A stretch of 64,000 nucleotides of DNA from an uncultured Lachnospiraceae bacterium (lineage in GTDB: Bacteria; Bacillota; Clostridia; Lachnospirales; Lachnospiraceae), in assembly GCA_947623805.1 (NCBI GenBank), contig CANQHZ010000005.1:1-64000 (forward strand). The letters run 5' to 3'. The notes beneath the pieces are model-generated. The model was not told the origin of the DNA. It did no database searches and worked only from the letters and a program-made list of their open reading frames with translations. How positions within the stretch are numbered: position 1 is the stretch's first letter; each line of letters starts with the position of its first letter. A program made the position numbers and the translations under genes. This document shows positions 37,563 to 64,000 of this stretch, in pieces.

Positions 37563-38435
37563 TTGAAAAAAATTATTGTGACCGGCTGTAACGGGCAGCT
37601 TGGGCGGGCGATTAATAAGCTTTATGAGGCTGACATGGAATATGAATGCATAAATACGGATGTCGGTCAGCTTGACATAACGGATATTGATGCGGTAAAT
37701 AAGCTTGTGGACGGGGTAAAGCCGTATGCGATTATAAATTGCGCCGCGCATACAAATGTCAACGGCTGTGAGACGGATATTGACAATGCGTACAGGATAA
37801 ATGCGATAGGTCCCAGAAACCTTAGTATAGCGGCAACGAGGTATGGTGCGAGGCTGATGCATATTTCGACGGACTATGTTTTTGACGGAAATGCGAGCAC
37901 TCCTTATACGGAGTTTGATACTCCCAATCCCAAGGCTGTCTATGGCAAAACAAAGCTTGCAGGCGAGAATTTTGTGAAAGAATTTGCCAAGGAGTATTTT
38001 ATCATACGCACGGCATGGCTCTATGGCGACGGTAAAAATTTTGTAAAAACCATGCTTAACCTGAGTGAAAATCATGATAAAGTCACTGTGGTGGGCGACC
38101 AGTTTGGCTCGCCTACAAGCGCGGACGAGCTTGCGAAAGCGATTGCGTATCTTTTGCCGACTGACAACTTTGGGCTGTTTCATGGTACTTGTGAAGGCTC
38201 TACGAACTGGGCGGATTTTACGCGCGAGATATATAGGCTTGCGGGCAGGAGCACGACAGTTGAGACCGTTACGACAGAGGAGTACAACAAAAATGTATCA
38301 GGAATATCCGCGCCGCGTCCCGCGTATTCGATACTTGAAAATTATATGTTAAAGCTTACTACTGATTTTATGTTTTCCGATTGGGAAAAGGCAATTGCCG
38401 AATATATAGCGGGCGGTTCGTATGGCAGTCGTTAG
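37563..38435 (+). CDS. rfbD: dTDP-4-dehydrorhamnose reductase
   Basis: VTGCNGQLGRAI; ISTDYVFDGNASTPYTEFDTPNPKAVYGKTKLAGE. Confidence 0.93.
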   Translation: MKKIIVTGCNGQLGRAINKLYEADMEYECINTDVGQLDITDIDAVNKLVDGVKPYAIINCAAHTNVNGCETDIDNAYRINAIGPRNLSIAATRYGARLMHISTDYVFDGNASTPYTEFDTPNPKAVYGKTKLAGENFVKEFAKEYFIIRTAWLYGDGKNFVKTMLNLSENHDKVTVVGDQFGSPTSADELAKAIAYLLPTDNFGLFHGTCEGSTNWADFTREIYRLAGRSTTVETVTTEEYNKNVSGISAPRPAYSILENYMLKLTTDFMFSDWEKAIAEYIAGGSYGSR

Positions 38436-38530
38436 TCTGTGGCGACCAAGGTTAAAAAGTGAGTGTATATTAGGCTTAAGGGGCATAATATAAGTGCGAA
38501 TACAAATACGGATACTATAGGAGGAGATAA

Positions 38531-39616
38531 ATGAACAATATAGCGTTGATAACAGGTATAACAGGGCAGGACGGCTCATATCTGGCTGAATTTCTGCTTG
38601 CAAAGGGCTATGAGGTGCATGGACTTATCAGAAGGCATAGTATATCAAATACCATGCGAATAGACCATTTGATTAATTCGGACTATAACAAGGTAAAGTT
38701 TTTCCTGCATTATGCGGACACGACAGATTCGTCAAATCTTATGAGGATTATAGGCGAGATAAGACCTACGGAGGTGTACAACCTTGCGGCGCAGTCGCAT
38801 GTGGGCGTTTCTTTTGAGGTGCCTGAGTATACGGCGGATGCGACAGGTGTGAGTACATTAAAGCTTTTGGAGGCGATAAGGGTAAACGGAGGCAACTGCA
38901 GATATTATCAGGCGTCAACGTCGGAGCTTTTTGGAGGACTTCCTGAAACAGCACCGCAAAGCGAGGCCACACCGTTTTATCCAAAGAGCCCTTACGGAGT
39001 AGCAAAGCTTTATTCTTACTGGATAACAGTCAATTACAGAGAATCTTATAATCTGTTTGCATGCAATGGTATTCTTTTTAATCATGAATCGCCAAGACGC
39101 GGCGAGAATTTCGTTACAAGGAAGATTACGCTTGCCATAGCTAACATAATAGCAGGAAGACAAAGCAAGCTCTCGCTTGGAAACATGAACGCCAAGAGGG
39201 ATTGGGGCTTTGCAGGTGATTATGTAGAGGGTATGTGGCTTATGCTGCAGCAGCCGTCCCCCGGAGATTATGTACTTGCGACAAATGAGACGCATACTGT
39301 GCGTCAGTTTGTAGAAGCTGCATTTGCTGAGCTTGGAATTGTCATTCGCTGGGAGGGCGAGGGTGTCAGGGAAAAAGGGTATGATGCGGAGACAGGAAAT
39401 CTTTTGGTTGACGTAAATCCTGAATTTTATCGTCCCGCAGAGGTTGAATTTCTCTGGGGCAATCCTGCCAAGGCGGAAAAGACACTCGGCTGGAAGCGTA
39501 AAGTGGATTTCAGGCATCTCGTGGCAATGATGATGGACGCGGATTTGAAAGCGATAACGGGAATGTCATGTGAAGAATATAAGAATAAGAGAAAAAACGG
39601 AGCGAACAATGAATAA
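38531..39616 (+). CDS. gmd: GDP-mannose 4,6-dehydratase
   Basis: [48 protein letters not shown]. Confidence 0.95.
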
Positions 39617-40550
39617 ATCGGATAAAATATATGTGGCAGGGCATAGAGGGCTTGTCGGTTCGGCTATAGTAAGGAATTTAAAGGAAAAAGGCTATGAGAA
39701 TATTATAGGAAAGACACATGATGAGCTTGACCTCACCAATCAGAATGATGTCAGGAATTTCTTTGAAAATGAGCGTCCGGATATCGTAGTGCTTGCGGCA
39801 GCAAAAGTGGGCGGCATAAATGCCAACAATACTGCGCCTGCCGACTTTGCATATGAAAACATGCAAATTCAATGTAATGTTATCAAGTGCGCTCATGATT
39901 ACAAGGTAAAGAAACTGTTGTTTTTGGGCAGTACGTGTATATATCCGAGGCTTGCGCCGCAGCCCATACCCGAGGATGCGCTCCTTACCGGACCGCTTGA
40001 GGAGACAAACGAGGCATATGCGATTGCCAAAATTTCGGGAATGCAGATGTGCAAATATTTTAAGCGTCAGTATGGGGATAATTTTATAAGCTGTATGCCG
40101 ACGAATCTTTATGGTCCGTATGACAATTATGATTTGTCTGGTTCTCATGTAATGCCGGCTATGATAAGGAAGTTTCACGATGCTAAAATCAATAACAGTC
40201 CCAGCGTTGAGCTGTGGGGGACGGGTACGCCTCTGAGGGAATTTTTGTATGTTGACGATATGGCTGACGCATGTGTCTTTTTGCTCGAGAATTATGAGGG
40301 TGAGCAGCATGTCAATATAGGCACTGGCAAGGAAGTGACAATAAAGGAACTTGCCGAGGCTGTCCGACGTACGGTTGGTTATGAGGGCGAGATTATATGG
40401 AATAAGGATATGCCTGACGGAATGCCCAGAAAGCTTACCGACGTCAGCAAGCTTCACAAGCTTGGATGGACGCACAAGGTTGAGCTTGATGAGGGGATAC
40501 GCCTTGCGTATGATTGGTTTAAAGAAAATGTCGAAAATGCTCGACTATAG
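39609..40550 (+). CDS. fcl: GDP-L-fucose synthase
   Basis: [57 protein letters not shown]. Confidence 0.95.
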
Positions 40551-54638: not shown

Positions 54639-56126
54639 ATGCAGTTTACGACCTTTGAATTTATTATATTTTTCCCAATAGTAGTGGGCTTGTTCTATGC
54701 TATGCCCAAAAAGTTCAGGCAGCCGTGGCTTTTGGTTGTAAGCTACTATTTTTATATGGGCTGGAATGCCAAATATGCATTGCTTATACTTGCATCGACA
54801 GTGGTGACGTATGTTGGCGGTATTGTGCTGGAAAGGCTTGGCGACGATAAGAGGAAAAAGATTTTTGCGCTGAGCGCCTGCATTGCGGTAAATCTGGGGA
54901 TATTGGCGTTTTTTAAATATTTTTATTTTCTGCATGATACGCTTTCGGCGCTTGGCAGTCTTTTTGGTATTAAAATCAGCGAAACGCGGCTTGACATAGT
55001 GCTGCCTGTCGGAATATCGTTTTATACATTTCAGGCGCTCGGCTATATTATTGATGTTTACAGAGGCAATACGGCGGCGGAGAAAAATTTTGTGCGGTAT
55101 GCGCTTTTTGTGTCGTTTTTCCCGCAGCTTGTGGCAGGACCTATAGAGCGAAGCGGCAACCTAATCTGGCAGTTGGAGAGGCTTGGACGTGAAAATGTCT
55201 GGGATTTTGACAGGGTGACAAGTGGGCTGCTTACGATGCTTTGGGGCTTTTTTATGAAACTCGTGATTGCGGATAGGGCGGCAGTGCTGGTAAACACGGT
55301 ATTTGGAGTATACTATATGTGCAACGGTCTGATGCTTTTTATGGGAGTGTTCATGTTCGCAATACAGGTATACTGCGATTTTGCAAGTTACTCGGCAATC
55401 GCCATAGGCGCGGCGCGTGTGCTTGGGGTAGAGCTTATGCAAAATTTCAGAGCGCCGTTTTTTTCGACTAGCGTTGCCGAACTTTGGCGTCGGTGGCATA
55501 TTTCGCTGAGCTCTTGGTTTAAGGATTACGTCTATATTCCGCTTGGGGGAAACAGATGCTCTAAGCCGCGAAAAAGTTTCAATACTATGGTGACATTTGT
55601 CCTCAGTGGGCTTTGGCACGGCGCAAGCTGGCATTATGTGTTCTGGGGTGGGTTAAATGGCGCATATATAGTGGCGGGCGACTTATTAAGACCGTTAAAG
55701 GCGCGGATAAACAATAAAATAGGAGTGAGAAGCGACACGTTAGGCTACAGGTTTTTTCAAGGAGTGTGCACGTTCTTTCTGTTTATGTTTTCGCTCATAT
55801 TTTTCAGGGCCGATACGGTAAAGGACGGGTTCTACTATATTCAGAGGATGCTGGGCAGATTTGATATATGGTCGCTTTTCAACGAGTCGGTGTATAACTT
55901 TGGGCTTGACAGAAAAGAATTTGTCGTATTGTTTATAGGTGTAATTGTGCTTTTGATAGTAGATGCTTTCTATGTAATCAGAGGCAAATTTTTTGCCGAG
56001 CTGGTAAAGGGGCAGTGCCTTGCCGTGCAGTATGTGGTGACGATTACGATTTTGGTTATGATTATTGCGTGCGGTGTGTATGGAGAGGGCTATGACGCGT
56101 CTCAGTTTATATATTTTCAATTCTGA
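54639..56126 (+). CDS. MBOAT family O-acyltransferase (AlgI/DltB-like)
   Basis: GISFYTFQALGYIIDVYRG; FPQLVAGPIERSGNL; LWRRWHISLSSWFKDYVYIPLGG; LSGLWHGASWHYVFWG. Confidence 0.94.
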   Translation: MQFTTFEFIIFFPIVVGLFYAMPKKFRQPWLLVVSYYFYMGWNAKYALLILASTVVTYVGGIVLERLGDDKRKKIFALSACIAVNLGILAFFKYFYFLHDTLSALGSLFGIKISETRLDIVLPVGISFYTFQALGYIIDVYRGNTAAEKNFVRYALFVSFFPQLVAGPIERSGNLIWQLERLGRENVWDFDRVTSGLLTMLWGFFMKLVIADRAAVLVNTVFGVYYMCNGLMLFMGVFMFAIQVYCDFASYSAIAIGAARVLGVELMQNFRAPFFSTSVAELWRRWHISLSSWFKDYVYIPLGGNRCSKPRKSFNTMVTFVLSGLWHGASWHYVFWGGLNGAYIVAGDLLRPLKARINNKIGVRSDTLGYRFFQGVCTFFLFMFSLIFFRADTVKDGFYYIQRMLGRFDIWSLFNESVYNFGLDRKEFVVLFIGVIVLLIVDAFYVIRGKFFAELVKGQCLAVQYVVTITILVMIIACGVYGEGYDASQFIYFQF

Positions 56127-56131
56127 CAATT

Positions 56132-57520
56132 TTGATATGGGGTGGGACTTTGAAAGAGAAAAGAAAAATCGGAAGAGTTGCGGCGGTGGCGTTGTTTGTG
56201 GCGCTTGTGGCGGCAGTTTTGTTTGTTGAGGGACGGATATTGCGGGCAAAGTTTATAGGCGATTCCACAACTATAGTGAACGGTTTTTATAATGAAAAGA
56301 AAAATGATGTAGATATGGTGATAATAGGCAGCAGCAACAGCTTTTGCACGATAGACCCGCGTATTTTATACAAAGATTATGGGATTGCGGCGTATGACTT
56401 CGGGAGCTCATTGCAGCCTATGGAAATTTCGCTGCTTTATTTGAAAGAGGCGTTTAAAAGGCAGCAGCCGAAAGTGGTGGCGTTTGAGGTAAATATGCTT
56501 GTAGGCGACACAAATGATTTGGGCGAGGAGGCGCTTAGGTGGGGGTATACGGATATTCCGTTGTCCATAGATAAGCTTAAGTCTATTTATCATTCATTGG
56601 GAAATGGTAAGATGGGCGCGGAATATTTTTCCTATGTTTTTCCAGTGTTTCGGTATCATAATCGCTGGAAAGAGCTTACTAAGACGGATTTTACGTATTT
56701 TTATAAGGATAAGACAAATTATACAAAGGGGTACCTCGAGACCGGTACTGTGTACGGGGAGGGGGTAAATTTGAGCAGCTATTATAATGAGTGCGATGCC
56801 TGGATAAGTGATGAGAATATGGCGTGTTTTGATGAAATGTTAAAGCTGTGCGAGGAAAATGGCGCTAAGCTGCTGCTTTTTAAGTCACCGAGGGAGGGGT
56901 GGTACAGCGCTTATACTGAGCTGGTGGAGAAGCTTGCGGCAGAGCGTGGGCTTTTGTTTGTGGATTACAATAAGCTTTACTGTGAAAATGGGATAGAGCT
57001 TGATTTGGCGCAGGATTTTAGGGATACGGAGCATCTCAACGATTACGGAGCGGCAAAGGTGACGCGTCATTTGGGAGATTATGTCTGTCAAAATTATGAT
57101 ATGCCTGATAGGCGAGGGGATGCGGAGGAAAATTCGTGGGATGTGGCGGTATTGTATAAGGAAAGAAAGGATGACAGGGGATTTTTTGCGGCGCGGACTG
57201 CTAGGGAGTGTATTGAGATGCTGCAGGGGGATGAAAATTATGTGCTGATAGTGACGGATGCGGAGAATGGGAGTGAGGGGAAGGTACGACAGTGGGTGTA
57301 TGAGGATGGGAAAATTTTGATTGATAAGGTTTGGGATAGGGATGAGGTTTTGCATGTGAAGATTGGGGAGGATAGTGAGGTTGTGCTTGCTAAGAAAGGC
57401 TGGGTTAATCAGGTGCGGGTTGATGATGTGGAGCAGTATGAGGCTGGGAGGAAGTGGAATGTGGTGGTGTATGATAAGGTAGTGGGGAGTGTGGTGGGGA
57501 GTTTGTATTTTGATGAGTGA
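56132..57520 (+). CDS. SGNH/DltD-like membrane-anchored protein paired with MBOAT
   Basis: N-terminal TM; MVIIGSSNSFCTIDPRIL and DTEHLNDYGAAKV. Confidence 0.75.
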   Translation: MIWGGTLKEKRKIGRVAAVALFVALVAAVLFVEGRILRAKFIGDSTTIVNGFYNEKKNDVDMVIIGSSNSFCTIDPRILYKDYGIAAYDFGSSLQPMEISLLYLKEAFKRQQPKVVAFEVNMLVGDTNDLGEEALRWGYTDIPLSIDKLKSIYHSLGNGKMGAEYFSYVFPVFRYHNRWKELTKTDFTYFYKDKTNYTKGYLETGTVYGEGVNLSSYYNECDAWISDENMACFDEMLKLCEENGAKLLLFKSPREGWYSAYTELVEKLAAERGLLFVDYNKLYCENGIELDLAQDFRDTEHLNDYGAAKVTRHLGDYVCQNYDMPDRRGDAEENSWDVAVLYKERKDDRGFFAARTARECIEMLQGDENYVLIVTDAENGSEGKVRQWVYEDGKILIDKVWDRDEVLHVKIGEDSEVVLAKKGWVNQVRVDDVEQYEAGRKWNVVVYDKVVGSVVGSLYFDE

Positions 57521-57778: not shown

Positions 57779-58801
<1,023 letters not shown>

Positions 58802-58844
58802 TATTACGGTAATAATTATATTATAATAAGGAAGTGTGTTTGCG

Positions 58845-60044
58845 ATGGAGAGACCGGCGATAGCAGGCGGCGCGCCTGTGCGTGAGACAAAGCTGTCTTA
58901 CGGACACCAGTATATTGACGAGGCGGATATAAATGCGGTCTGCGAGGTGCTAAGGAGTGATTTCCTTACATGCGGACCGAAAGTGGAGGAACTTGAAAAA
59001 AGATTGTGTGAGCTTACGGGAGCGAAATATGCAGTAGCCTGCAGCAACGGTACGGCGGCGCTTCATATGGCAGCGCTTGCGGCGGGCTTGGGCGAGGGAG
59101 ACGAGATGATTACCACGCCTATAACCTTTGCGGCGTCGGCAAACTGCGCTCTTTACTGCGGAGCAAGACCTGTGTTTGCGGACATAAATCCGAGGACATA
59201 TAATATTGACCCGTCAAGCGTGGCTGAAAAAATCACGGAGAAAACCAAGGCTGTGACAGCTGTTGATTTTACGGGGCAGGCTGCGGAGCTTGACGAGCTT
59301 TTAAGGCTGTGCCATGAAAAGGGGATTTTGCTTATAGAGGATGGGGCACATTCCATAGGCACTAAATATAAGGGCAGGTATGTCGGCAGCATTGCGGATA
59401 TGACGACCTTCAGCTTTCACCCTGTAAAGACTGTGACTGGCGGCGAGGGAGGGGCTGTGCTTACTAATGATGCCAAGCTGTACGAGAAGCTTGTCTATTT
59501 CCGCACGCACGGCATTACGAGGGAAAGCGCTCTGTTTGAAAATGAGCCTCACGGTCCATGGTATCATGAACAGATTGACTTGGGCTACAATTACAGGCTT
59601 ACCGATATACAATGCGCGCTCATCATAAGCCAGCTTGACAAGCTTGAAAAATTTGCCGCAAGGCGCAGGGAAATTGTGGAAAGATACAACAAGGCGTTTT
59701 TGCAGATGCCTCAGCTTTTTGTGCAGGAGGAGATACCTGAGTCGGAGACGGTAAGGCATCTTTATATACTCCGCATAAAGCCTGAGACGCTCAATATTGA
59801 CAGAAAAGGCTTTTTTGAGGCGCTTGCGGCGGAGAATATATGCGGAAACGTGCATTATATTCCTGTGTACTGGCATCCTTATTATCAAAGGCTGGGATAT
59901 GAAAAAGGGCTCTGCCCGAATGCCGAAAAGCTTTATCAGGAGATTATAAGCTTGCCGATTTACTATTCGCTCACTGATGATGATGTCGATAGTGTGATTG
60001 AGGCTGTGAGGAAGATAGTTGAGTATTATAAGAAAAACATTTAA
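58845..60044 (+). CDS. pseC: UDP-4-amino-4,6-dideoxy-N-acetyl-beta-L-altrosamine transaminase, PseC
   Basis: DegT-type fold: DFLTCGPKVEELEKRLCELTGAKYAVACSNGTAALHMA; FSFHPVKTVTGGEGGAV. Confidence 0.93.
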   Translation: MERPAIAGGAPVRETKLSYGHQYIDEADINAVCEVLRSDFLTCGPKVEELEKRLCELTGAKYAVACSNGTAALHMAALAAGLGEGDEMITTPITFAASANCALYCGARPVFADINPRTYNIDPSSVAEKITEKTKAVTAVDFTGQAAELDELLRLCHEKGILLIEDGAHSIGTKYKGRYVGSIADMTTFSFHPVKTVTGGEGGAVLTNDAKLYEKLVYFRTHGITRESALFENEPHGPWYHEQIDLGYNYRLTDIQCALIISQLDKLEKFAARRREIVERYNKAFLQMPQLFVQEEIPESETVRHLYILRIKPETLNIDRKGFFEALAAENICGNVHYIPVYWHPYYQRLGYEKGLCPNAEKLYQEIISLPIYYSLTDDDVDSVIEAVRKIVEYYKKNI

Positions 60045-60095: not shown

Positions 60096-60785
60096 GTGAA
60101 AAGTGTAGCTATTATTACAGCAAGGGGCGGGAGCAAGCGTATTCCGCGAAAAAATATAAAACCATTTCTCGGAAAGCCTATTCTTGAATATAGCATAGAG
60201 GCGGCGCTGAAGACGGATGTTTTCTGCGAGGTTATGGTTTCTACGGATGACGAGGAGATAGCTCAGGTGGCAAAGAAAGCCGGGGCAAAGGTACCGTTTA
60301 TGCGCAGTGAAAAGACATCGAATGATTTTGCCTCGACGGCTGATGTTGTCGGCGAGGTGATTGATACGTATGAGCGTATGGGGATGAAATTTGAGCGCGC
60401 GTGCTGTATTTATCCTACGGCGCCGTTTATCACGCCTGACGCGATAAAAACAGCGATGGCGCTTTTGGAACAGGAAAAGGCGGATTGCGTCATACCTGTG
60501 GTGAAATATTCATTTCCTCCGCAGCGCAGCGTCGTAATAAATAACGGGCGGCTTATGGCAAAATGGCCTGAAAATATGGACAAGCGCTCCCAGGATTTAG
60601 AGCCGCTTTATCACGACTGCGGGCAGTTTTACTGTCTCAATGTTGAGAGCTTCAAAAGGCAGAGAGAAATCTGGATGGAGAATGCTGTGCCGTATATTCA
60701 GGATGATATCAATGTCCAGGATATAGATACGCTGGATGACTGGGAGATAGCGGAGATGAAATACAGACTTCTGAGAAATATGTAA
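60096..60785 (+). CDS. pseF: Pseudaminic acid cytidylyltransferase PseF
   Basis: AIITARGGSKRIPRKNIKPFLGKPILEYSIEAAL; YHDCGQFYCLNVESF. GTG start. Confidence 0.92.
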   Translation: MKSVAIITARGGSKRIPRKNIKPFLGKPILEYSIEAALKTDVFCEVMVSTDDEEIAQVAKKAGAKVPFMRSEKTSNDFASTADVVGEVIDTYERMGMKFERACCIYPTAPFITPDAIKTAMALLEQEKADCVIPVVKYSFPPQRSVVINNGRLMAKWPENMDKRSQDLEPLYHDCGQFYCLNVESFKRQREIWMENAVPYIQDDINVQDIDTLDDWEIAEMKYRLLRNM

Positions 60786-60887: not shown

Positions 60888-62843
60888 ATGGCTGGAGAAG
60901 AAATTAAGCCCCTATATAAAAATGTTATAAAAATAAGGGCATTTGAAGAATTGATTTTAGAATTGTTTGGCAAAAATAAGCTGTCAGGCACGACGCATAC
61001 CTATATCGGTGAGGAGGCAACTGCCGCCGCCATTATGACTATGGTTACTGATGAGGACTTTGTATTCAGCAATCATAGGTGCCATGGGCACTATCTGGCG
61101 TATGGCGGTCCCGCCCAAAAGCTGCTTGCCGAGATAATGTCAAAGCGTTCCGGTTTGTGTGAGGGCAGGGGAGGCAGCCAGCATATTCACTACAGGAATT
61201 TTTATACAAATGGGGTTCAGGGTGGAATTGTCCCAAACGCGGCAGGGGTTGCTTTTGCCAACAGGTTTAAGGGTAATGCTGGAAATACGATTGTCTTTTT
61301 GGGCGATGGTACATTAGGGCAGGGTGTCGTCTATGAGACTATAAATATGGCGCTGCTGTATAAGTGTCCTATCCTTTTTGTCATAGAAGACAATTCCTAT
61401 GCCATGAGCACGAGGCGCGAGGACGCTGTCTTTGGTGATATAAAGTCACGTATGTCAGGCTTTGGACTGGAGACCTATGAGATAACGAGCACTGATGCAG
61501 ATGAGCTTGTGGGCTTTTTCAGAGAGGTTTTTGACTGCTTAAATTCAAAAAGACTTCCTGTCTGTGCGGTAATTCACAATTACAGGCTGGGCGCGCATAG
61601 CAAGGGCGATGACACAAGGGCTCCGGAAGAAATTGACGTTCATAAAAAATCAGACCCCGTAAGACTTGTCGCCGAGCGCATAGGCGAGGAGGCATACAGG
61701 CGGATTTATAAGGAATATCGTGATGAATTTGAGGGTTTTGTCTCGCTCTTGGACAGTGAGGAGTCTGCGGATATCGAGGTACAGACGCTTCCGGCTGTGC
61801 CAGACTCGTTATCTCAGCTGTGTGAAACCGCGGAAAGATACGTGGACTGTATACAGGCCTCGTTTGATGAGGAATTGCAAAAAAACGAAAACCTTGTATT
61901 TATCGGCGAGGATATAAGAGGGCCCTATGGCGGCGCCTTTAAGGCGACAAAGGGACTTTCGGAGAAATATGATAATCGGCTTATAAATACGCCTATCAGC
62001 GAGGCAGGAATGACGGGAATGGCAGTAGGAATGGCTCTAAACGGCATGCTTCCCGTGGTTGAGATGATGTTCTGTGACTTTATCACGCTCGCTTTCGACC
62101 AGCTGCTAAACCATGCCTCAAAATATGGCTGGGTATACGGCGGCAGTGTCAGGCTTCCGCTGGTTATCAGGGTGCCAAGCGGCGCAAAACGCGGCTACGG
62201 ACCTACGCATAGCCAGTCACTGGAAAAATTTTTGACAGGCATTCCTATGATACGCGTAATAGCGTTATCATGCTTTCACAATCCGCAAAAGGTATATAAA
62301 AAGCTTTTTTCTTCAATAAAAGAGCCGACTATTGTTGTAGAGAACAAGAAGCTCTATGCTCAAAAAACGCAGCCAGTCATTAACGGAGCATATGAGGACT
62401 TTTCTGTGCGGGAGATAAATCATTATGGGTATTCGACTGTCTGCTTTTCGATGGACACCGACAGTGTGCCTGATGTATATCTGATAACATATGGCGGGCT
62501 TGCCGCAGAGGCTGTGGACGCGGCGACGGAGCTGATGATACAGGAGGAAATTCAGGCGGATGTCATTGTGCTCGGACAGCTTTCGCCTTTGCCGCTTGAT
62601 GATTTGAAGGAAATTCTGCATAGGGATGCCACGGTTTTGACGGTTGAAGAAGGGACGAGGACAAACGGTGTCGGCGCCGAGATAATAGCAGCTTTAGCCG
62701 AGCAGAATATAGGAAAGTCATATCATAGGCTTGCCGCGCCTGATATGCCTATTCCAAACGGAATAGTACTGGAAAGCCAGACTATTCCCGACAAACAGAA
62801 GATTATCGAAAAAGTAAAGAGAATTTGCGGTTATGGGAGATAG
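60888..62843 (+). CDS. Fused E1 alpha/beta thiamine-diphosphate-dependent 2-oxoacid dehydrogenase
   Basis: TPP motif GDG-X27-N at 61302 (GDGTLGQG...EDN), YRLGAHSKGDDTR; E1-beta half GEDIRGPYGGAFKATKGL, NTPISEAGMTGMAVGMAL, GPTHSQSLEK. Confidence 0.93.
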   Translation: MAGEEIKPLYKNVIKIRAFEELILELFGKNKLSGTTHTYIGEEATAAAIMTMVTDEDFVFSNHRCHGHYLAYGGPAQKLLAEIMSKRSGLCEGRGGSQHIHYRNFYTNGVQGGIVPNAAGVAFANRFKGNAGNTIVFLGDGTLGQGVVYETINMALLYKCPILFVIEDNSYAMSTRREDAVFGDIKSRMSGFGLETYEITSTDADELVGFFREVFDCLNSKRLPVCAVIHNYRLGAHSKGDDTRAPEEIDVHKKSDPVRLVAERIGEEAYRRIYKEYRDEFEGFVSLLDSEESADIEVQTLPAVPDSLSQLCETAERYVDCIQASFDEELQKNENLVFIGEDIRGPYGGAFKATKGLSEKYDNRLINTPISEAGMTGMAVGMALNGMLPVVEMMFCDFITLAFDQLLNHASKYGWVYGGSVRLPLVIRVPSGAKRGYGPTHSQSLEKFLTGIPMIRVIALSCFHNPQKVYKKLFSSIKEPTIVVENKKLYAQKTQPVINGAYEDFSVREINHYGYSTVCFSMDTDSVPDVYLITYGGLAAEAVDAATELMIQEEIQADVIVLGQLSPLPLDDLKEILHRDATVLTVEEGTRTNGVGAEIIAALAEQNIGKSYHRLAAPDMPIPNGIVLESQTIPDKQKIIEKVKRICGYGR

Positions 62844-62849
62844 TGTGAA

Positions 62850-63887
62850 ATGACAGAGATTGTGATGCCAAGGCTTGGGGTAAATGATGATTTTGTCACG
62901 CTTGTATCGTGGCTGGTGAATGACGGGGACTGGGTAAGTAAGGGGCAGAAGGTAGCCGAGATTGAGACCTCAAAAGAAGCAAATACCGTAGAGGCTGAAG
63001 TGGAGGGCATAATTTCACTGACAGCAAAAGAAGGGGAGGACATAGAGGTTGGCAAGCCCATTGCGTCAATCGGCGAGGGTGTATGTCCTAAGCCCGATGC
63101 TGACGGAGACAGTAAAGAGCCGTTCGATGTGCGCATGACGGAGAAGGCAAGAAAGCTTATCGAGGAGAATGGGATTGATGTTTCGCTGCTCCCAAAGGGC
63201 AGGCTTATAAAGGAAAAGGACGTTTTGCCGCTTGTCAAGCCGAGATATACTGTCAGCCCGACAAAAAATAACGAGATTATTCTTTACGGCGGCGGCGGTT
63301 TTTCTGTGATTGCGATTGATATACTGAAAGTATCCCATGCGTATCATGTCCATGGCATTGTGGACATAAAATATCCTGATTTGAAAGAGGTTATGGGAGT
63401 TCCAGTAATCGGAGGCGATGAATGTCTGGAGGAATTATACGCTTCAGGTTACAGAAAAATATTTAACGGGGTAGAGTCAAACGGAAGCCAGTATTGGAAA
63501 AAGCCGCCCTATGAAAAGCTGAAAAAATACGGCTTCGAGTTTCCTAATATAATTCATACAAGGGCTATTCTTGAACCAAGCGTATGTCTGGGCGAGGGCG
63601 TAATCATATGCGCGGGAGCGATTGTCGGGGCAAACGCGAGGATTGGCAACAACTGTATGATAAATGCGGGCGCGATATTGTCCCATGATGACATTATCAG
63701 TGATAACTGCCATATCGCATCGGGCGCTGTCTTGGCGGGTATTGTCACTGTCGGTGAAAATACTCTTATAGGACAAAACGTAACAGTGTATTCGCGCGTG
63801 AATATCGGAAGCAATGTTATAATAGAAAACGGCTGCTCTGTGTTTAAGGATGTCCCTGACAATACTGTGGTGAGGTATAAGCGGTGA
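62850..63887 (+). CDS. Chimeric E2-like protein: lipoyl domain + PSBD-like segment + PglD/NeuD-type acyltransferase
   Basis: Lipoyl IVMPRLG...EIETSKEANTVEAEVEG (Lys42); VRMTEKARKLIEENGIDVSLLPKGRLIKEKDV; hexapeptide-repeat helix GAIVGANARIGNNCMINAGAILSHDDIISDNCHIASGAVLAG. Confidence 0.88.
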   Translation: MTEIVMPRLGVNDDFVTLVSWLVNDGDWVSKGQKVAEIETSKEANTVEAEVEGIISLTAKEGEDIEVGKPIASIGEGVCPKPDADGDSKEPFDVRMTEKARKLIEENGIDVSLLPKGRLIKEKDVLPLVKPRYTVSPTKNNEIILYGGGGFSVIAIDILKVSHAYHVHGIVDIKYPDLKEVMGVPVIGGDECLEELYASGYRKIFNGVESNGSQYWKKPPYEKLKKYGFEFPNIIHTRAILEPSVCLGEGVIICAGAIVGANARIGNNCMINAGAILSHDDIISDNCHIASGAVLAGIVTVGENTLIGQNVTVYSRVNIGSNVIIENGCSVFKDVPDNTVVRYKR

Positions 63888-63888
63888 T

Positions 63889-64000
63889 ATGGAAGGGCTT
63901 ATATATCAGTCGTCTTTAAACAATCCTTACCACAACTTAGCAGCGGAAGCGTATCTTGCCCAAATATGCAGGGAGGAAAATAAAAGCTGCCTCTATTTGT
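63889..64000 (+). CDS. Lipoate-protein ligase A-like protein (N-terminal fragment, runs off window)
   Basis: MEGLIYQSSLNNPYHNLAAEAYLAQICREENKSCLYL resembles the LplA N-terminus (NLAxExxL...LYLW). Confidence 0.75.
   Translation, partial: MEGLIYQSSLNNPYHNLAAEAYLAQICREENKSCLYL

Follow-up and report, generated by a model that had tools for sequence, protein, structure and literature searches.

Certain natural-product pathways join a thiamine diphosphate (ThDP) enzyme of the E1 type, fused or split, to a lipoyl protein. In the QncN/QncL/QncM (quinocarcin), NapB/NapD (naphthyridinomycin) and RenH/RenI systems, the lipoyl protein ends in a PF00198 E2 acyltransferase, as in RenI, and loads an acyl carrier protein (ACP) for a nonribosomal peptide synthetase (NRPS). 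PMC6335953 credits QncN, QncL and QncM with the synthesis and attachment of a C2-glycolicacyl unit, and for the homologous SclQ1-4 it proposes a ketose phosphate, for example xylulose-5-phosphate, as the source. Likewise, PMC7570522 describes DinS/DinU as homologous to NapB/NapD, with a hydroxyethyl unit derived from xylulose-5-phosphate. In the pepteridine pathway of Photorhabdus, an E1 and an E2-fusion protein divert an acyl group to an amine, and PMC5384830 proposes that this pyruvate dehydrogenase (PDH)-like E1/E2 pair feeds the N-acyl group from 2-oxoacids. Here, we analysed a window of 64,000 nucleotides from an uncultured Lachnospiraceae bacterium, the first part of contig C5 (67,884 bases), in which a fused E1 of this kind is followed by a chimera of a lipoyl domain, a segment resembling a peripheral subunit-binding domain (PSBD) and a NeuD/PglD sugar acyltransferase, within an operon for pseudaminic acid (Pse) synthesis.

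The locus resembles the Qnc, Nap and Ren systems in its E1 clade, and the chimera shares a lipoyl-PSBD lineage with the RenI type. However, the chimera ends in NeuD where those proteins end in an E2 acyltransferase, no ACP was recognised among the operon ORFs, and the ketose-derived two-carbon unit, reported for Qnc and Nap, is here a prediction. The pepteridine pathway differs in its NRPS carrier and condensation domain, its pterin, its proposed 2-oxoacid donors and its host-borrowed E3 (PMC5384830). The PDH and acetoin complexes have the same set of E1, lipoyl-PSBD protein, E3 and LplA and the same swinging-arm logic, whereas here there is no catalytic E2 and no coenzyme A (CoA) product, and the E1 falls in a different clade. 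With the NeuD/PglD/PerB N/O-acetyltransferases (TIGR03570), the chimera shares a Rossmann-like N-domain, a left-handed beta-helix and a catalytic His, but it adds the N-terminal lipoyl and PSBD-like domains, and its predicted donor is acyl-lipoyl rather than acetyl-CoA. LpxA and LpxD are beta-helix acyltransferases that take their acyl group from a protein-bound thioester, as proposed here, although there a free ACP bearing phosphopantetheine, and not a fused lipoyl domain, acts as the carrier.

The chimera ORF begins six bases past the end of the E1 ORF. Its lipoyl domain (residues 1-75) matches Biotin_lipoyl in Pfam with an E value of 1.6e-13, and the lipoyl Lys42 lies within ETSKEA, a turn of the lipoyl E-T-x-K type and not of the biotinyl type (ETSK42 here, ETTK in both orthologues). 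The NeuD acyltransferase domain (about 139-345) comprises PglD_N and hexapeptide repeats (Pfam), scores 165.5 bits against NeuD_NnaD (TIGR03570; cut-off, 160.8) and carries a catalytic His279 that aligns with His141 of PerB (PDB 4ea7). A first-pass annotation had placed E1, a lipoyl-PSBD-PglD chimera and LplA after pseB-pseC-pseF. Its gene order and coordinates are exact, and its lipoyl and NeuD/PglD domains stand, whereas the PSBD match is weak (about 94-130; PF02817, 14.9 bits, E 0.031, under the cut-off of 23.7). AlphaFold2 places two helices over residues 98-129, with a local pLDDT of 70-81, in an overall model that is of low confidence (mean pLDDT 46.6, four sequences).

The E1 is a single ORF of 651 amino acids with E1_dh, Transket_pyr and Transketolase_C domains (Pfam), and the ThDP motif GDG...N is present in its alignment. 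Among plasmid records, it matches RenH of the renieramycin cluster best (38% identity over 98%), followed by E1s that adjoin ACP, NRPS or ketosynthase genes. We built an E1 tree of 21 rows, including 13 PDH/acetoin-type E1s and three sugar-operon E1s, with BCKDH, QncN and NapB outside its sample; the sugar-operon E1s and the RenH/natural-product E1s split from the 13 PDH/acetoin E1s with support of 100/100. About 30 positions tell the natural-product side apart from these 13, among them N62, Q98, Q111, T142, D242, Y437-T440 and K447. Q111 corresponds in the alignment to Val138 of human PDH E1 alpha, in a numbering that we take to be right from the V138M variant recognised among the chains. In a tree of the lipoyl-PSBD region, the chimeras group with RenI (96/92) and with actinobacterial E2s (98/90), in independent agreement with the placement of the E1. 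As further observations, a Paenibacillus polymyxa plasmid cluster (L087 1447-6873) holds two ACPs, a split E1 of the same clade, an E2 and a thioester reductase, and a candidate E1 relative in another genome (G133) proved to belong to an ordinary acetoin/PDH-type operon with a catalytic E2.

Because the Qnc/Nap-type relatives are reported with a ketose-derived two-carbon unit, we lean towards a ketose-derived glycolyl group rather than a 2-oxoacid-derived acyl group. The first-pass annotation had instead proposed that the E1 decarboxylates a 2-oxoacid and that the chimera passes the acyl group to an amino sugar; pyruvate would then give acetyl, and hydroxypyruvate could likewise give glycolyl. 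The E1 domains are indeed the same as those of PDH and acetoin E1s. The general catalytic residues His441, Glu372 and His237 are kept and, by our reading of the alignments, appear to occupy the positions of H128beta, E59beta and H271alpha, which are discussed for PDH (PMC2663715). In addition, the pepteridine system provides a published PDH-like E1/E2 pair for which 2-oxoacids are proposed (PMC5384830). Nevertheless, the E1 lies outside the 13 PDH/acetoin E1s and inside the natural-product clade, and active-site positions differ, such as Q111 for PDH V138. Since both the E1 and the lipoyl domain group with RenH/RenI, whose characterised relatives QncN/QncL are reported to draw a glycolyl unit from a ketose phosphate, 2-oxoacid decarboxylation is not favoured, and we consider it unlikely while granting it an appreciable share of our belief.

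We next consider which sugar receives the acyl group. pseB, pseC, pseF, pseI and pseG each score above the NCBIfam equivalog cut-off, so that PseB, C, F, I and G of the canonical pathway (PseB-C-H-G-I-F) are all present. Departing from that pathway, the operon has additional genes for E1, the chimera, LplA (274.9 bits against TIGR00545; cut-off, 280), E3, a formyltransferase and a PIG-L deacetylase, and no PseH above the family cut-off was found; the best candidate is a PseH-like GNAT downstream, near the WecE-type gene (87 bits against 93.1). Reading the chimera solely as a substitute for the missing PseH was dropped, given this GNAT. Of the genes expected past position 64,000, E3 and pseI are on the same contig, whereas pseG is near the end of a second contig, C63, which additionally carries a WecE-type transaminase (633 bits), the PseH-like GNAT and PglF-, PglE- and PglC-like genes. 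The last bases of C63, MAAGMERAEAFMLVRKCVKKDK*, match the 3' end of the PIG-L gene, MAAGMERAEAFMLIRKTLRK*, that lies between the formyltransferase and pseG in G696, another species of the same genus. Therefore, C5 and C63 most likely adjoin in the genome, with PIG-L in the gap.

Of 38 genus genomes, only two carry the chimera complete with its lipoyl domain, and the fused E1 was found in these two alone. They are the window genome and G696; the G696 E1 and chimera are 52% and 54% identical to the window copies. The order in G696 is pseB-pseC-pseF-pseI-E1-chimera-LplA-E3-formyltransferase-PIG-L-pseG. As pseI stands ahead of E1 there and behind E3 in the window genome, the order has been shuffled while the E1-chimera-LplA-E3 block stayed intact. 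An E1 search of 397 family genomes added only G768, from another genus, where the E1 (43% identity) overlaps by four bases with the next gene, again a lipoyl-PSBD-NeuD chimera. The neighbours of this pair are a recombinase, a SPASM radical-SAM protein and an FkbM methyltransferase, and pse genes were not found near it. This makes the E1-chimera pair the core unit, with a pse link in two of three genomes; the conserved tie to nonulosonate genes that had been anticipated holds in those two, and the case for a strict tie is weakened by G768. The recombinase-like gene, of the serine type, lies immediately upstream of the G768 pair (L073 8624-9238), hinting that the pair may be mobile. Elsewhere, no chimera was detected in viral contigs, a general contig scan returned only one ordinary E2, one partial E2 and distant hexapeptide proteins, and the plasmid matches among those listed were NeuD-only. 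A putative partial chimera (L040) is a stand-alone NeuD adjoining NeuC/NeuB-type genes.

The CoA-independent, lipoyl-tethered acyl transfer by E1, chimera, LplA and E3 that was first suggested is supported by the E3 and pseI genes downstream and by the recurrence of the operon, pse genes included, in another species. We consider lipoyl-tethered sugar acylation probable, and we hold with similar confidence that the acceptor here belongs to the Pse pathway. The chimera might instead serve another amino sugar of the cluster, for example one of the UDP-bacillosamine or dTDP-Fuc4N type, and sit in the pse operon by position only. No PglD gene was seen beside the PglF-, PglE- and PglC-like genes of C63, of which the PglE-like gene is of the LegC family (375 bits), and the WecE-type transaminase is also at hand. 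Moreover, PerB and PglD-type enzymes, the nearest solved relatives of the chimera NeuD domain, acylate 4-amino sugars, and the G768 pair lacks pse neighbours. However, pseF, pseI and pseG are interspersed with the four genes in both species, the PglF/E/C genes are many kb away or on another contig, and that sugar could instead be the substrate of an ATP-grasp enzyme encoded beside PglC; we therefore judge service to another sugar improbable. In both species, the PglF-, PglE- and PglC-like genes are followed by this ATP-grasp ligase in PglD's place (L070 3086-8184; L069 6876-11571), and it may attach a carboxylate to a 4-amino sugar.

Another explanation is that the NeuD domain keeps acetyl-CoA as its donor, with the lipoyl arm and E1 serving another purpose (redox, or a non-sugar role of E1) and the fusion acting as a tether. 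Stand-alone NeuD enzymes such as PglD and PerB use acetyl-CoA, which speaks for this explanation, as does the conservation of the catalytic His and most glycine/hexapeptide framework positions in all three chimeras, which we compared with 39 stand-alone NeuD-like proteins. Yet all three depart from the stand-alone proteins at H151 (GGHA becoming GGF or I), N260 and E278, and the GAG turn at 326-328, which most stand-alone NeuDs have in the C-terminal coils, is replaced by E/Q/Y-N-G. In PglD-type enzymes, CoA contacts are expected in these coils, and the coil changes of the chimeras fall where we would expect such contacts. Furthermore, the operon shows no other acyl acceptor for E1, LplA and E3 are retained in it, and the genome lacks an E2 catalytic domain: no PF00198 match was found genome-wide, whereas 10 of 14 control genomes were positive. 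The PF00364 matches in the window genome are the chimera, a biotin carboxyl carrier protein (EAMKM) and a sub-threshold HlyD-like protein; a true GcvH was not found there, the only match of the GcvH model being that same carrier protein, and the operon LplA is the only LplA/LipB-family gene found. Consequently, the chimera is the only detected lipoyl acceptor in the window genome. In G768, neither LplA nor E3 lies beside the pair, but a complete PDH operon elsewhere, comprising E2, E3 and LplA, could supply both; most simply, the helpers would accompany the pair only in genomes without another source of them. Retention of acetyl-CoA is quite improbable in our estimate. Finally, although the pair is rare (the chimera search found no other in 299 family and 399 phylum genomes), misassembly or a chance functionless fusion is already refuted, since the chimera recurs (54% in G696, again in G768) with the same domain order, open frames, Lys42 and His279 in three genomes of two genera, and its likelihood is practically nil.

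In the scheme that we propose, LplA would lipoylate the chimera at Lys42. The E1 would extract a two-carbon ketol unit, the likeliest source being a ketose phosphate (xylulose-5-phosphate, for instance), and use it to acylate the lipoyl group reductively, forming glycolyl-S-dihydrolipoyl. The swinging arm would then carry the thioester directly to the chimera's own NeuD domain, predicted to be a trimer, where His279 would activate the amine of a UDP-amino sugar for N-acylation, and E3, held by the PSBD-like segment, would reoxidise the dihydrolipoate. With PIG-L and the formyltransferase, one N-acetyl group would be removed, one amine formylated and one glycolylated, after which PseG, PseI and PseF would complete N-glycolyl pseudaminate. 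The glycolyl identity, the ketose phosphate donor, the accepting amine and the direct lipoyl-to-NeuD transfer are predictions drawn from sequence comparison. As a whole, the transfer of ketose-derived glycolyl from the Lys42 lipoate onto an amine group of a sugar in the Pse pathway is the best explanation that we have, with belief and doubt evenly balanced.

Several points weigh against this scheme. Its support is wholly computational and consists of gene content, domain make-up, the conservation of catalytic residues, clade placement, shared gene order in two species and the lack of another detected lipoyl acceptor in the window genome. The test between nesting of the sugar-operon E1s among natural-product E1s and a sister position did not separate the two (p-AU 0.42), so that donor specificity may differ from that of natural-product E1s, and QncN and NapB, as said, are themselves absent from that tree. 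Given the downstream PseH-like GNAT, an acetyltransferase for the 4-amine may already exist, other amino sugars are made by the same cluster (WecE-like and PglF/PglE-like genes), and the G768 pair stands apart from pse genes. The GxPAK tail is lost in the chimeras, yet only 12 of the 39 stand-alone NeuDs have one, which makes this weak evidence. Lastly, the lipoate survey of G696 was confined to GcvH and LplA.

Table 1. Genes of the pseudaminic acid operon on contig C5, in window positions unless marked as contig positions.
Feature	Coordinates	Strand or placement	Basis
pseB, UDP-GlcNAc 4,6-dehydratase (inverting)	57806..58801	+	TIGR03589, 536 bits (cut-off 408)
pseC, UDP-4-amino-4,6-dideoxy-AltNAc transaminase	58836..60044	+	TIGR03588, 475 bits (cut-off 424)
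pseF, CMP-pseudaminate cytidylyltransferase	60096..60785	+	TIGR03584, 297 bits (cut-off 206)
Fused ThDP enzyme (E1 alpha+beta, 651 aa), natural-product two-carbon-transfer clade	60888..62843	+	Pfam, tree, clade residues
Lipoyl - PSBD-like - NeuD/PglD chimera, 345 aa	62850..63887	+	Pfam and NCBIfam models, orthologues
LplA lipoate-protein ligase, 5' part in window	63889..64000, continues to contig position 64875	+	TIGR00545
E3, predicted dihydrolipoamide dehydrogenase	contig 64915-66285	after LplA, past window	
pseI	contig 66333-67397	after E3	TIGR03586, 497 bits
Formyltransferase		after pseI; gene runs off contig C5 end	

The surroundings of these genes (Table 1) hold further glycan functions. 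The formyltransferase and PIG-L deacetylase genes lie between E3 and pseG (L056 13549-14960; edge of L070), which suggests N-acyl exchange on a pseudaminate precursor. In both species, pseB directly follows a two-gene segment, an MBOAT-like O-acyltransferase gene and then one for a protein of 450-460 amino acids (window 54639-57520; L056 1005-3925), for which the L056 copy gave no Pfam match; the two are possibly an extracellular O-acetylation pair for the same glycan. Judging from ORF sequences, RmlD-like, GDP-mannose 4,6-dehydratase-like and GDP-fucose synthase-like genes lie upstream in the same polysaccharide region (window 37563-40550), and contig C8 of the window genome holds a second nonulosonate-like locus (L059 5477-15820) with a CBS-nucleotidyltransferase, a stand-alone NeuD, a cytidylyltransferase, a NeuB-type synthase and an epimerase/dehydratase.

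What is new at this locus is that a sugar acyltransferase replaces the carrier-loading E2 of a putatively glycolyl-loading E1/lipoyl pair; in the open-access literature searched, we found neither a lipoyl-NeuD protein nor such a use described. We tentatively suggest, at somewhat below even confidence, a third activated acyl donor for amino sugars beside acyl-CoA and acyl-ACP, namely ketose-derived glycolyl on a fused lipoyl arm, which would give N-glycolylated nonulosonates without the animal Neu5Gc hydroxylase route. The prediction is specific, naming Lys42, His279 and a shift of +58 Da. If it is true, the swinging lipoyl arm can work with a sugar acyltransferase, and lipoate ligase and E3 gain a role in a genome with no other detected lipoyl enzyme. 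Central sugar phosphates would then feed the decoration of surface sugars directly, without passing through CoA, and the organism would be predicted to make N-glycolyl pseudaminic acid, a bacterial sugar resembling Neu5Gc, the glycolyl sialic acid.

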